Under the pieces are notes generated by a model. The model was not told the DNA's origin. It worked only from the letters and a program-made list of their open reading frames with translations, and made no database searches. A stretch of 64,000 nucleotides of DNA from Armatimonadota bacterium (lineage in GTDB: Bacteria; Sysuimicrobiota; Sysuimicrobiia; Sysuimicrobiales; Humicultoraceae): assembly GCA_031459855.1 (NCBI GenBank), contig JAVKHP010000001.1:2377906-2441905 (forward strand). Direction: 5' to 3'. This document shows, piece after piece, positions 5,840 to 14,228 of this stretch. The translations under genes and the position numbers were made by a program. The first letter of the stretch is position 1, and the number at the start of each line of letters is the position of its first letter.

Positions 5840-6784
5840 ATGCGTGGCCTGGCCGTCGTGGCCATCGGAGGCAACTCCCTGGTCCGCGACAACGATGCGT
5901 CGGTCGACGCCGCCCGGGCGGCGCTGGCCGAGACGTGCGCGCCGCTGGCGGCCATGGCGGCCGATGGCTGGATGCTGGCGGTCACCCACGGCAACGGGCC
6001 GCAGGTGGGGTTTGGGCTGCTGCGGGCCGAGGCCGCCGCGCAGGTTGCACCCCGGCAGCCGCTCGACGTGGTGGGGGCCGAGACCCAGGGCTCGATCGGG
6101 TACCTGCTCCAGCAGACGCTGGGTGCGGCGCTGGCCGCCCGGGGCATCCCCCGCACCGTGGCCACCGTGGTCACCCAGGTGGTGGTCGATCCCCAGGACC
6201 CGGCCTTTGCGCACCCGACCAAGCCCATCGGGCCGTTCTACCACCCGGTGGAGGCTGAGGTGCGCCGGCGCATGGGTTGGGTGATGGTGGAAGACGCCGG
6301 GCGGGGGTGGCGGCGCGTCGTGCCCTCTCCCGAGCCGCTGGAGATCGTGGAAGGCGAGGCGATCCGCGCCCTGGTAGAGCGCGGCGTCACCGTGATCGCC
6401 GCGGGCGGGGGAGGCATTCCGGTGGTGCGGGGCGAACGAGGCTACGTCGGCGTGGAGGCCGTTGTCGACAAGGACCTCGCGGCCGCCGTGCTGGCGCGTG
6501 TGCTCGGCGCCCGGCTGCTGGTGATCTCCACGGCGGTCGAGCACGTGGCGCTGCACTACGGCACGCCGCGGGCGCGGCCGCTGGGCCGGGTGTCGCTGGC
6601 CGACGTCCGGCACTACCTGGCCGAGGGGCACTTTCCGCCCGGCAGCATGGGCCCCAAGATCACGGCGGCAGTGCGGTTTCTCGAGAGCGGTGGCGAGGCC
6701 GTGGTCATCACGGCGCCCTGGGCGCTCGAGCGAGCGCTGGCCGGCGCGGCCGGCACGCACATCGTGCCCGACGGGGCGCCCTGA
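5840..6784 (+). CDS. arcC: Carbamate kinase
   Basis: Cytosolic amino-acid-kinase-fold enzyme that interconverts carbamoyl phosphate plus ADP with carbamate plus ATP. The 314-aa length is typical. Seen: AIGGNSL at the N-terminus, THGNGPQVG near 50, QGSIGYLLQQ near 90, an IAAGGGGIPVV loop near 190 and VDKDLAAAVLA near 212, with a closing THIVPD. It lies 26 bases after the HTTM-DCC gene and 38 bases before an aminotransferase gene. No arginine deiminase or ornithine transcarbamoylase is nearby, so it may serve purine, allantoin or other carbamoyl-yielding breakdown rather than arginine fermentation; that is inference. Confidence 0.95.
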   Translation: MRGLAVVAIGGNSLVRDNDASVDAARAALAETCAPLAAMAADGWMLAVTHGNGPQVGFGLLRAEAAAQVAPRQPLDVVGAETQGSIGYLLQQTLGAALAARGIPRTVATVVTQVVVDPQDPAFAHPTKPIGPFYHPVEAEVRRRMGWVMVEDAGRGWRRVVPSPEPLEIVEGEAIRALVERGVTVIAAGGGGIPVVRGERGYVGVEAVVDKDLAAAVLARVLGARLLVISTAVEHVALHYGTPRARPLGRVSLADVRHYLAEGHFPPGSMGPKITAAVRFLESGGEAVVITAPWALERALAGAAGTHIVPDGAP

Positions 6785-11111: not shown

Positions 11112-11606
11112 TCAGGGTCGACGGTACAGAAGGTAGCGCGCCAGGTGCAGGAGGATGTACCGGTCGGGCGGTGCCAGCCGGCGCGCGATCACGCCGAGCT
11201 CGGCTGCAGCCAGTGCGCTCCGCTCGAGCGCGGGCTGGGACCGTCCGCCGGCGGGCGCAGGCGCCTCGGGTTCGAACAAGGGCAGGCTGCGGCCGCGCCG
11301 CAGCGGGAGCTGGACGGCCACGGGTCGGTCTTCGTCGCCCGGCGGCGCGGAGATCTCCTCCACGTAGGCCATGAACGCCGCCGTACTGAGCCCCAGGGCC
11401 CGGGCGAGACGGGCGACGACGTCCGCCGACGGACGCTTGCGCCCCCGCTCGACGTCCTGCACGTACGAGCGGGAGAGGCGCGCCAGGCGCGCCAGGTCCT
11501 CGCGGGAGAGCGCGCGCGAGGTGCGCAACGTCTCGACCGCCCGGCCGAAGTCGAGCCGGGATCGGGGCTTGCGCGCACGTGCCGCGGGATCGGACATGGA
11601 CGCCAT
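11112..11606 (-). CDS. XRE-family helix-turn-helix regulator
   Basis: 164-aa putative DNA-binding protein. An XRE/Cro-like HTH covers about residues 18-75: LSREDLARLARLSRSYVQDV, then GRKRPSADVVARLARALG. A Pro/Arg-rich linker follows, then a C-terminal helical part (LAPPDRYILLHLARYLLYRRP) that may dimerise or sense a ligand. It lies at the downstream end of the minus-strand catabolic run, 173 bases after the amidohydrolase stop. A second in-frame ATG at 11597 is possible; neither start has a clear SD. Family certain, target unknown. Confidence 0.82.
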   Translation of the reverse strand: MASMSDPAARARKPRSRLDFGRAVETLRTSRALSREDLARLARLSRSYVQDVERGRKRPSADVVARLARALGLSTAAFMAYVEEISAPPGDEDRPVAVQLPLRRGRSLPLFEPEAPAPAGGRSQPALERSALAAAELGVIARRLAPPDRYILLHLARYLLYRRP

Positions 11607-11805: not shown

Positions 11806-12969
11806 GTCGCGGGCGGATGCCACGACGGGCCGGGCGACGTCCGCCAATGGACGGGCATCCAGCGCGGCCCATGCGTCGGCGGCGCGCTGCAGGGCCTGGC
11901 GGATCCACTCCTTGTCGCCCTCATTCAGGGGCACCCCGGCGCCCAGCTTGGCCCAGACCACCGTGTGGTAGAAGCGCAGCGCGGTGGCGGCCACCCACAC
12001 CTCGCTGCGCACGCTGCCGTCGCCATTGGGGAGGAAGATGTCCCCGATGTTGTCGGTCCCGATGCGCACCGTCACGCCCGCGGCCAGCATCTCGAGGACG
12101 CGGGCGATGGAGTTGTGCACGGGCGCCACTAGCGGCCGCAGCTGGAACATGGAGAGCGCGGCCGTGGGGCAGCAGATCACGCCCACGTTGTAGCGCACCA
12201 GGTTCTCGACCAGGCGCTGGAAGCGCGCTTCCTCGTAGCAGGACGGCGAGATGGCGTGGACCGCCCACACCGTGGGGCCCACCTCGTCGGGCACCTCCGG
12301 CGCGCCCAGCCACCGCACCGCCTGGACGAGCTGCTCGGTCTCGTCCTCCCGCGGATCGTTGTCCTGGTCGACCTGGAAGTGCACGGGCTTGCGCAGCCGG
12401 TGGGCGAGCTCCAGCACCATGCGCACGTGCCCGTCGAACCCGACGCGGCCGTCGGCGCGGTCCTTCACCGGCAGGCCGCCCAGGACGTCGGCGATCTCGG
12501 CCGCCTCGCGGTAGGTCTCCCAGCGGTCCGGGTTGCTGGCGGGGTTCTTGAAGCCGAAGATGGGCGAGACGGCGATCTTGAAGGTCAACCGGCCCCGAAA
12601 CTCGTCGCGCAGGCGCGCGGCCTGGTGGATGGCCACCAGGCCGATGTCCGGCGTCGCGTCGATGAACGAGATCACCTCGCGGACCCCGGCGGCCTCCATG
12701 CGCTCGAGCTCGGCGCGCATGCGGGCGTAGAGGTTGTCGGGCTGGTAAGCCGGTCCCTTGTGCAGCTCGCCGACCAGGATCTGCTTGACTCGCAGCGACA
12801 GCCCCGCCGCGCCCATGGGGTCGATGTTGGCGTGCTGGAGGAACTCGGGCGCGAAGGTGTTGGCACGGTCGAGGTGCGTGTGGGCGTTGCACCACCCGCC
12901 CATCGCCCGCACCAGCTGGTCCACGGCCTGGGCCCAGGCGCCGGCCCCCACGGCGTCCCGGGGGATCAT
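11779..12969 (-). CDS. Amidohydrolase-family deaminase (cytosine-deaminase-like)
   Basis: 396-aa metal-dependent hydrolase of the amidohydrolase superfamily, probably cytosolic. Seen: the N-terminal metal site CNAHTHLDRANTF near residue 27, HFQVDQDNDP near 205, VWAVHAISPS near 250 supplying further His, and the metal Asp in VRIGTDNIGD near 310. This order fits the cytosine-deaminase / chlorohydrolase branch. Upstream lie a PyrR-type hairpin, leader ORF and terminator, which suggest a pyrimidine-related substrate. The ATG at 12969 has GGAGG about 10 bases before it and overlaps the leader stop (ATGA), so translation is probably coupled. Exact substrate cannot be read. Confidence 0.85.
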   Translation of the reverse strand: MIPRDAVGAGAWAQAVDQLVRAMGGWCNAHTHLDRANTFAPEFLQHANIDPMGAAGLSLRVKQILVGELHKGPAYQPDNLYARMRAELERMEAAGVREVISFIDATPDIGLVAIHQAARLRDEFRGRLTFKIAVSPIFGFKNPASNPDRWETYREAAEIADVLGGLPVKDRADGRVGFDGHVRMVLELAHRLRKPVHFQVDQDNDPREDETEQLVQAVRWLGAPEVPDEVGPTVWAVHAISPSCYEEARFQRLVENLVRYNVGVICCPTAALSMFQLRPLVAPVHNSIARVLEMLAAGVTVRIGTDNIGDIFLPNGDGSVRSEVWVAATALRFYHTVVWAKLGAGVPLNEGDKEWIRQALQRAADAWAALDARPLADVARPVVASARDGGVVAARR

Positions 12970-13085
12970 GGCCGGCCTCCGCTCGCCGGCTCGCGGCGTG
13001 CACGGTGACGATGCGTGAGGGCGGGAACGTGCGGAAAACGCCACGCCCGCCGTAGCGGCGGGCGTTCCAGGTGCCGGTACGTCAT
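12966..13085 (-). CDS. Leader peptide of a PyrR-type attenuator
   Basis: 39-codon ORF, Arg/Pro/His-rich (begins MTYRHLERPPLRRAW), with an excellent AAGGAGG 6 bases before its ATG. Its stop TGA overlaps the amidohydrolase ATG. The terminator hairpin lies entirely inside this ORF, so a translating ribosome would melt it. The SD is the 3' strand of the upstream CNGNGA-loop hairpin, so protein binding there would block translation. Coupled leader-peptide attenuation through PyrR is known for the Thermus pyr operon. The peptide sequence is probably unimportant in itself. Confidence 0.6.
   Translation of the reverse strand: MTYRHLERPPLRRAWRFPHVPALTHRHRARREPASGGRP
13033..13065 (-). terminator. Intrinsic terminator within the leader ORF
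   Basis: On the minus strand a perfect 10-bp stem (ACGCCCGCCG, loop CTA, CGGCGGGCGT; 13065-13043) is followed by GGCGTTTTCC. The tail matches the GCGTTTTCC after the thrS T-box terminator in this window. It would stop transcription before the amidohydrolase unless the leader is translated. Confidence 0.75.
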
Positions 13086-13129
13086 CAGACCCTCCTTGTC
13101 CGCCTCACAGGGCGGCCCTTAAAGGAGTG
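13086..13129 (-). promoter_or_regulatory. PyrR-type RNA-binding hairpin
   Basis: Minus-strand RNA folds as CTCCTT / internal TAAGGG / CCGCC / hexaloop CTGTGA / GGCGG / AC / AAGGAG. Lower and upper stems pair perfectly. A purine-rich internal bulge and a CNGNGA hexaloop followed by GG are the known PyrR-binding features of Bacillus, mycobacterial and Thermus pyr leaders. The 3' arm AAGGAG is the ribosome-binding site of the leader ORF. Confidence 0.75.
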
Positions 13130-13140
13130 ATGTCGGTCAG

Positions 13141-13170
13141 ACCATAGCACGTAGGGCGGACGCCGGTCAA
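13141..13170 (-). promoter_or_regulatory. Sigma-70-type promoter for the amidohydrolase leader
   Basis: Minus-strand TTGACC (13170-13165), 18-base spacer, TATGGT (13146-13141). Transcription would begin near 13134, a few bases before the PyrR-type hairpin. The -35 box overlaps the last codons of the upstream M14-type gene. Confidence 0.65.
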
Positions 13171-14228
13171 GGGATGGCGTCGGGAGAGTCGGACCCGTCG
13201 GGAGAGCCGGCGGACGGGAGTGACAGTACGAAGGCCAGAGCGTCGCCGGCAACGACGCGAGGGAGCGTCCGCAGGAACAACACCCGTCCGGCGCGCACGG
13301 CCGGTACCGTGGCCAGCACGGTGCCGTCGGGGTGCCGCACCTCGCCGAGCAGCTGCCCTGCCTCTACGGGGTCCCACAGGTCGACGTGGGGCACGAAGAG
13401 GCCGCTCGTGGGACTCCGGTGGTCGGCCTGCAGGTGGCCGGAGGCGGGCTGCGGGTCCTCGACGACGTACGGTGCCGCGGTGGGGTAGGAGCCGTCGAGC
13501 ATGCCCAGGTACGCCATCACCTGGCGCAGGCCCCCGACCGCCCGCGCCCGGTCCGTCGGCCGACACCGACCTTCGCCGCGCATCTCCACGTAGATGGCGG
13601 GGATCCCGAGATCGCCGGCTGCAGACAGCGTGCGTCCGGGCAGCACCGCGGTGCCCCAGACCAGCGGAGCCCCAAAGGCGATGGCGGCCTCGCGCTGCAC
13701 CCGGCCGAGCTCCCCCTCGCGGAGCTGGTAGCCGGCCAGGTGGAAGATCGCGTAGGCGTTGCCGCCGCTGTGCATGTCGAGCAGGAAGTCGGCCTGCGGG
13801 AGCAGGTACGTGCGAAATGCGTGGGCGATGCGCTGGGTGGGGCTCCCAGCCGGATCGCCGGGAAAGGCGCGGGCGAGGTCCAGTCCATCCCACGGGCTCT
13901 CGCGCCGTGCGGCCGCGAACGCGGCGCCGTGCACCACGGGGATGCCCACGAAGATCCCTCGCAGTGCCTCCGGCTCCAGCGCGTCGAAGACATCCTGGAT
14001 CGCCACGGTGCCCTCGTACTCGTCACCGTGGACCGCACCGCAGACCAGCAGCGTCGGGCCGGGCCGCGCGCCCGCGACGACGACGGCGGGGAAGGCCAGG
14101 TCCTGTCCATCGGGCGCAGCGGCGACGACCAGTGCGTAGCGGCGCTTGCCGGGTGCGGCGAGGGCGCGGACGTCGAACGCGCCGACGGGCAGGCGCTCTG
14201 GGGTGTGGAGCGCCATGTGGTGGGCCAT
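13167..14228 (-). CDS. Succinylglutamate desuccinylase/aspartoacylase-family (M14-like) deacylase
   Basis: 353-aa zinc-dependent amide hydrolase, probably cytosolic. Seen: GAVHGDEYEG near residue 65, giving the first His and the Glu of the zinc site; an R-rich substrate segment; LLDMHSGGNAYA near 147 giving the second zinc His; and a C-terminal beta-rich domain with GLFVPHVDLWDPVEAGQLLG. Members release amino acids from N-acylated forms. The ATG lies one base after the IclR stop, so the two are in one transcript with MlrC upstream. A second ATG at 14216 is possible. The exact acyl substrate is unknown. Confidence 0.87.
   Translation of the reverse strand: MAHHMALHTPERLPVGAFDVRALAAPGKRRYALVVAAAPDGQDLAFPAVVVAGARPGPTLLVCGAVHGDEYEGTVAIQDVFDALEPEALRGIFVGIPVVHGAAFAAARRESPWDGLDLARAFPGDPAGSPTQRIAHAFRTYLLPQADFLLDMHSGGNAYAIFHLAGYQLREGELGRVQREAAIAFGAPLVWGTAVLPGRTLSAAGDLGIPAIYVEMRGEGRCRPTDRARAVGGLRQVMAYLGMLDGSYPTAAPYVVEDPQPASGHLQADHRSPTSGLFVPHVDLWDPVEAGQLLGEVRHPDGTVLATVPAVRAGRVLFLRTLPRVVAGDALAFVLSLPSAGSPDGSDSPDAIP

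Follow-up and report, generated by a model that had tools for sequence, protein, structure and literature searches.

A predicted PyrR-controlled leader upstream of an amidohydrolase with a likely role in pyrimidine biosynthesis

PyrR attenuators are already known, and their targets report on function: a gene that UMP switches off can be expected to serve pyrimidine synthesis. In the 64,000-nucleotide stretch of Armatimonadota DNA analysed here (the window), a leader of this type had been predicted upstream of an amidohydrolase gene, which the original prediction took for a lone deaminase-like gene outside pyrimidine biosynthesis. The question raised by this locus is what such a gene does under PyrR. 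The best explanation of the whole, which we consider likely, is a PyrR-controlled, leader-peptide-coupled attenuator in front of a pyrimidine-biosynthetic amidohydrolase.

As shown in Table 1, the minus strand of the window from 13170 to 12966 carries, in this order, a promoter, a hairpin of the PyrR-site type, a leader ORF, a GC-rich stem within this ORF, and an ATGA overlap with the amidohydrolase gene. The promoter reads as originally claimed: a scan of the leader finds one promoter-like site, while 0.0 are expected in shuffled sequences, and TTGAC with a TAT-type -10 element stands at the equivalent place in five relatives. The leader ORF, with the 3' arm of the hairpin as its Shine-Dalgarno sequence (SD), and the overlap with the amidohydrolase are likewise present in the sequence and conserved in six genomes. 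The terminator claimed within the ORF stood only in part. Its 10-bp stem is there, is conserved, and is part of the MFE structure of each of the six leaders. It is weaker than described, as the T run of the window is short and displaced and begins 4 nt past the stem; because of this, a strict terminator scan of the window leader gives no match. In four of the five relatives a T-containing tail lies directly 3' of the stem (GGCGGGCGTTTTGC in three genomes and GGCGGGCGTCTTGC in G008). A same-strand gene for a deacylase of the AstE/DoeB kind (window 13167-14228) is located upstream, and its stop codon falls inside the -35 region of the attenuator promoter.

Table 1. Positions of the leader features and the amidohydrolase gene in the window, and of the second PyrR site of the genome
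Feature	Position	Strand	Details
Sigma-70-type promoter TTGACC-18-TATGGT	13141..13170	-	-35 TTGACC 13170-13165, -10 TATGGT 13146-13141, 18-nt spacer
PyrR-binding-site hairpin (predicted)	13092..13127	-	CTCCTT-TAAGGG-CCGCC-CTGTGA-GGCGG-AC-AAGGAG; lower stem CTCCTT/AAGGAG, upper stem CCGCC/GGCGG, hexaloop CTGTGA, purine-rich bulge
Shine-Dalgarno AAGGAGG of leader ORF	13091..13097	-	mostly within the hairpin 3' arm; same in five orthologous leaders
Leader ORF, 39 codons	12966..13085	-	runs across the terminator-like stem
Terminator-like 10-bp stem ACGCCCGCCG/CGGCGGGCGT and T run	13035..13065	-	arms 13065-13056 / 13052-13043; TTTT 13038-13035
ATGA stop/start overlap, leader ORF/amidohydrolase	12966..12969	-	ATGA or TTGA in all six genomes
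Amidohydrolase, 396 aa	11779..12969	-	divergent PRK06886 relative
Second PyrR site of the genome	L119 / G000:C1:51579-51678		directly upstream of pyrD-pyrF-pyrE, then hpt-like and guaB-like genes

Orthologs of the amidohydrolase (77-79% identity) are found in five genomes of the same family (G001 and G007-G010), and all five are preceded by the hairpin with the SD in its 3' arm, together with the stem, the leader ORF, and the 4-nt overlap. The leader is kept although the 5' gene order of the window differs from that of G007-G010. In the six genomes the leader ORF has 37, 39, or 42 codons, the differences are always multiples of three, and the frame and the overlap are preserved over three genera. 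Conservation of this structured leader beyond chance is confirmed. Codon-position counts indicate only a weak constraint on the leader peptide, which disfavors the peptide as a functional product.

The Rfam model RF00515, which covers mainly Bacillus-type PyrR leaders, aligns end to end over the hairpin, the linker, and the terminator (13129-13034, 96 bases). The covariance-model check foreseen in the original prediction thus gave a match on the minus strand, at 41.5 bits (E 5e-4 for a 1.2-kb stretch and 3e-4 for the whole genome); this score is below the gathering threshold of 54, which is a detection threshold and not a structural feature. A pyrB site of the phylum (in G035) scores 55, and the model also matches in Thermus composti. 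The pattern CCTTTWA-N5..12-CCNGNGAGRY-N4-AAGG finds 19 sites in 16 of the 43 genomes searched in the phylum, while the reversed pattern, used as a control, gives one. Base pairs of the hairpins were counted by a script, as a MAFFT alignment of all hairpins put the 5' arms wrongly. Over 17 sites from 15 genomes, position 3 of the upper stem is C-G in nine, G-C in seven, and G-U in one; position 1 is C-G, U-A, or U-G; positions 2 and 4 show one A-U and one U-A change; and the hexaloop is CNGNGA in every site. Within the six amidohydrolase leaders alone, C-G and U-A alternate in the upper stem. The hairpin with its CNGNGA hexaloop and purine-rich bulge, as first described, is borne out by the Rfam match and these paired changes, and we regard it as almost certainly a PyrR site.

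A pyrR gene was also sought in the source genome (G000) and was found as a single copy away from the window (G000:C1:3075190-3075765), at 219-222 bits against a cut-off of 138. The encoded protein is colinear with solved PyrRs and aligns over its full length with B. caldolyticus PyrR, including RGHRELPIRAD-VGKNVPTS. The amidohydrolase-leader site and pyrR occur together in G000, G001, G007, G009, and G010. G004 (97% complete) has neither a PyrR site nor pyrR, and in G008 (85% complete) the site is present and pyrR was not found. Other PyrR sites in the phylum precede pyrB-pyrC, pyrR-pyrB, or pyrD; two genomes have one before an AsnRS-related gene. Since the hairpin pattern finds no site in the CPR, Pasteurellaceae, and Blattabacterium loci of distant family members, the evidence for PyrR control is limited to this lineage. 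With the upper stem covarying, pyrR in the genome, and the leader ORF conserved with its SD in the hairpin, the reading as a PyrR/leader-peptide attenuator holds as far as sequence can tell.

From this arrangement we infer PyrR binding and the on/off behavior of the leader. At high UMP, PyrR-UMP on the 5' hairpin would keep the 3' arm, and with it the SD of the leader, paired. The leader would then remain untranslated, the stem inside it would form, and transcription would stop; reinitiation at the ATGA overlap would fail too. At low UMP, translation of the leader would hold the stem open and the amidohydrolase would be made. Such a leader-coupled mode of PyrR control can be proposed with good confidence. 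In the pyr leader of Thermus ZO5, PyrR is reported to work with a translated leader peptide, and there, as in the window, a PyrR-type hairpin overlaps the ribosome-binding site of a short leader ORF, which runs through a terminator or, in the window, a terminator-like stem. The Thermus leader drives pyrB, whereas the leader in the window drives the amidohydrolase. In three leaders (L013, L016, and L017) the 5' arm CTCCTTTAAGGAG could fold on itself, which would free the leader SD without PyrR.

Mycobacterial PyrR exerts translational control, and PyrR might also act here on translation only, by hiding the leader SD while the ATGA overlap couples the leader to the amidohydrolase and the stem is not a working terminator. 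The displaced T run and the negative scan in the window agree with this, as does the stop/start overlap conserved in six genomes. The second PyrR site of the genome is of the mycobacterial form: its 3' arm is the SD of pyrD, which would be sequestered directly, with no terminator between. The site before the amidohydrolase differs in that it hides the SD of a leader ORF containing a terminator-like stem. That stem is found in all six leaders and is followed directly by GTTTTG or GTCTTG in the four relatives with a tail, the Rfam model aligns the terminator arm, and T-rich stems are clearer in the phylum's pyrB leaders. Control by translation alone is unlikely in view of these points. Far less likely is a Bacillus-type mechanism, in which PyrR would be an anti-antiterminator acting through competing hairpins and the leader ORF would be incidental. 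The window shares with the Bacillus subtilis attenuators and RF00515 the CCUUU(A/U)A element, the upper stem, the CNGNGA hexaloop, the AAGG arm, a downstream terminator or terminator-like stem, and a cognate PyrR, and pairing between GGCGG of its hairpin and CCGCC of the terminator is possible (as read from the sequence, with duplex energies computed). This alternative pairing is not conserved among the six leaders, and the Bacillus-type antiterminator was rejected on this ground; GACGG in four relatives weakens the pairing, and the terminator stem coexists with the upstream structure in the computed folds of all six. Unlike the B. subtilis attenuators, the window leader scores below gathering, has no conserved antiterminator that could be seen, and has a leader ORF as part of the design, with frame and overlap kept across the three genera.

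The controlled gene encodes a protein that matches PF01979 at 25.9 bits and NF005365/PRK06886 (annotated as 'hypothetical protein') at 190.4 bits, below the curated cut-off of 340. The family signature Hx(H/Q)VDQ and GTDNIxD is present in the window protein. At about 30% identity, it shares with PRK06886 the motifs GGWxNAHxHxDR, HxHVDQxN or HxQVDQxN, HxIS, and GTDNIxD; members of PRK06886 have about 327 aa, as compared to 396 aa in the window protein. TIGR00857 (pyrC_multi, type I dihydroorotase) is not among its NCBIfam matches, which does not exclude a functional replacement of dihydroorotase by the amidohydrolase. In a Foldseek search with the predicted model (pLDDT 83.5), the nearest solved folds are cytosine/5-methylcytosine deaminase (1k6w and 4r7w) and AtzC (2qt3), with E-values from 6e-14 to 3e-10. 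The fold, the HxH, the second His, and the metal Asp are shared with these enzymes. The pyr-biosynthetic context and the catalytic Glu are not: Glu217 of CodA is Gln throughout the PRK06886-related family. Therefore, a classical cytosine-type deaminase is unlikely; the original prediction had put forward cytosine, isoguanine, or dihydropyrimidines as substrates. The metal ligand His214 of CodA is also Gln in the window protein and its subfamily, a difference from PRK06886; because of this residue and the score of 190 vs 340 bits, the window protein may have diverged in its reaction.

Genome context of the family points to pyrimidine biosynthesis. The order amidohydrolase-pyrD-pyrE-pyrF is found in eight Burkholderiales/betaproteobacterial loci, where the genes mostly overlap or are less than about 60 nt apart, and distant family members adjoin pyrD-pyrE-pyrF in CPR bacteria too. 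Because of these neighbors, the amidohydrolase is placed inside pyrimidine biosynthesis and not outside it as a lone gene. In nine CPR/Chlamydiae loci, a long-type argininosuccinate synthase (ASS) is adjacent or within about 2 kb, and four of the nine also have a DDAH-like hydrolase. One of the family loci, L101, has the order ASS-OTC-amidohydrolase-pyrD-pyrF-pyrE and is the only case with ornithine carbamoyltransferase (OTC). In 80 family neighborhoods, no aspartate carbamoyltransferase (ATCase) or dihydroorotase was found, apart from cross-matches to OTC. Members of the family occur in CPR bacteria, Blattabacterium, Pasteurellaceae, and gut-symbiont Burkholderiales. A literature search outside subscription papers found nothing on PRK06886 or an alternative dihydroorotase.

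The source genome encodes carB, argF, argG, pyrD, pyrE, and pyrF. HMM searches of this one 97.7%-complete assembly covered ATCase and dihydroorotase of type I (as distinct from the E. coli-type type II enzyme) and found neither. The best match to the ATCase model is ArgF, with 149 bits to TIGR00670 vs 417 to ornithine carbamoyltransferase, and the best type-I dihydroorotase matches are AllB allantoinases. ATCase ('pyrB') matches over the cut-off exist in G001-G004 and G007-G010, and of their neighborhoods those in G001, G004, and G007 were inspected. The G007 gene is part of a ureide/purine-type cluster with a YgeW/OTC-like carbamoyltransferase, carbamate kinase, and a CoxS/XDH-like gene; because of these neighbors, the match was set aside and not counted as a biosynthetic ATCase. 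The role of the ATCase-like protein is doubtful in the sister genomes G001 and G007-G010, although it is over the cut-off. No carB was seen in G007-G010. The genes around the amidohydrolase are not alike in the window and its relatives and therefore do not define its function; a catabolic-cluster reading of the locus was rejected for the same reason.

Biosynthesis is the expected role of a gene that UMP turns off, and this expectation, together with the family context and the gene inventory, leads to dihydroorotate formation. On balance we favor a role of the amidohydrolase in biosynthesis and not in catabolism of pyrimidines. It probably forms dihydroorotate for PyrD where ATCase and dihydroorotase are missing. 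The reaction that we infer would complete a route through arginine intermediates. ArgF would make citrulline from carbamoyl phosphate and ornithine, and ArgG would make argininosuccinate from citrulline and aspartate. By ring closure of argininosuccinate and hydrolysis of the exocyclic C-N bond, the amidohydrolase would then give dihydroorotate and ornithine, and PyrR would repress it when UMP is high. Argininosuccinate is put forward as the substrate because of the ASS and OTC partners and the AtzC-like chemistry (alkylamine release from a ring carbon), and this assignment is tentative. In its widest form the proposal has a little less than an even chance: the amidohydrolase and its PRK06886 relatives would form dihydroorotate in a step not described before, for which argininosuccinate is the most likely substrate and ornithine would be the recycled carrier; this step would bypass ATCase and dihydroorotase in several unrelated bacterial groups and would be the PyrR-controlled committed step in this lineage. 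If true, it would link arginine-type intermediates to dihydroorotate in genomes where a gap is left by missing pyrB and pyrC, and auxotrophy predictions for such genomes would change. Through its control by UMP, a 'hypothetical protein' family becomes a definite candidate enzyme whose proposed substrate can be tested. In Thermococcus, carbamoyl phosphate derived from arginine feeds pyrimidines (PMC13260591). There, too, the lack of a canonical enzyme is made good by enzymes of the arginine pathway (OTC), which supply pyrimidine synthesis. The step replaced in Thermococcus is carbamoyl phosphate synthesis, which lies upstream of ATCase; the route proposed here would instead skip ATCase and dihydroorotase.

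Several observations count against this role: the divergence of the window protein from PRK06886, the ATCase-like protein of the sister genomes, and the lack of a detected carB in G007-G010. Haemophilus influenzae encodes a PRK06886-type protein (L071) and is termed a pyrimidine auxotroph in a review (PMC13328217), which counts against the simple version of the proposal; H. influenzae may be short of citrulline supply. The enzyme could instead be a non-orthologous dihydroorotase that acts on carbamoyl-aspartate and not on argininosuccinate. The position next to pyrD fits this, an ATCase-like protein is present in the sister genomes, and the DDAH-like hydrolase of the CPR loci could yield carbamoyl-aspartate from an aspartate-guanidine. 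ATCase was not found in the window's own genome, however, and the L101 cluster has OTC and ASS without ATCase, which makes a plain dihydroorotase somewhat unlikely. Another alternative is that the enzyme deaminates a pyrimidine or related base in salvage or catabolism, and that PyrR does no more than restrain salvage at high UMP. This would agree with the fold and its nearest solved structures, with the transport and carbamate-kinase genes nearby in G007-G010, and with the auxotrophy described for H. influenzae. Against it are Gln in place of E217 of CodA in the family and of His214 in the subfamily, and the presence of family genes in pyrD-pyrE-pyrF clusters. It also leaves the argininosuccinate synthase partner unexplained, and we consider it improbable.

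Further genes near the amidohydrolase and its relatives are of note. In the window, carbamate kinase (5840-6784; 366 bits to TIGR00746, cut-off 358) is about 5 kb from the amidohydrolase, and an XRE-type regulator (11112-11606) adjoins it; an ORF of the same kind is nearby in G001, G007, G009, and G010. In G007-G010, ornithine carbamoyltransferase and carbamate kinase are divergent from the amidohydrolase (L020 3412-7979; same region in L021, L022, and L023), and this divergent region includes an AGAT/SxtG-type amidinotransferase in G007 and G010. The argininosuccinate synthases of CPR/Chlamydiae have 535-545 aa (e.g., L047 4341-5951, L101 3397-5007, and L037 3522-5159). In the two that were examined (L047 and L101), a match to the end of the carbamoyl-phosphate synthase large subunit covers the C-terminal part, which is possibly a UMP-type regulatory domain. 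In one CPR locus, two DDAH-like guanidino hydrolases flank the amidohydrolase (L057 5064-5870 and 6952-7755).

An unexpected PyrR target is a short class II aminoacyl-tRNA-synthetase-like gene, which is preceded by PyrR sites in G002 (L012 1501-1593) and G013 (L114 1501-1594). The G002 gene is nearest to asparagine-tRNA ligase (151 bits vs a cut-off of 414), and the G013 gene was classed from its translation.
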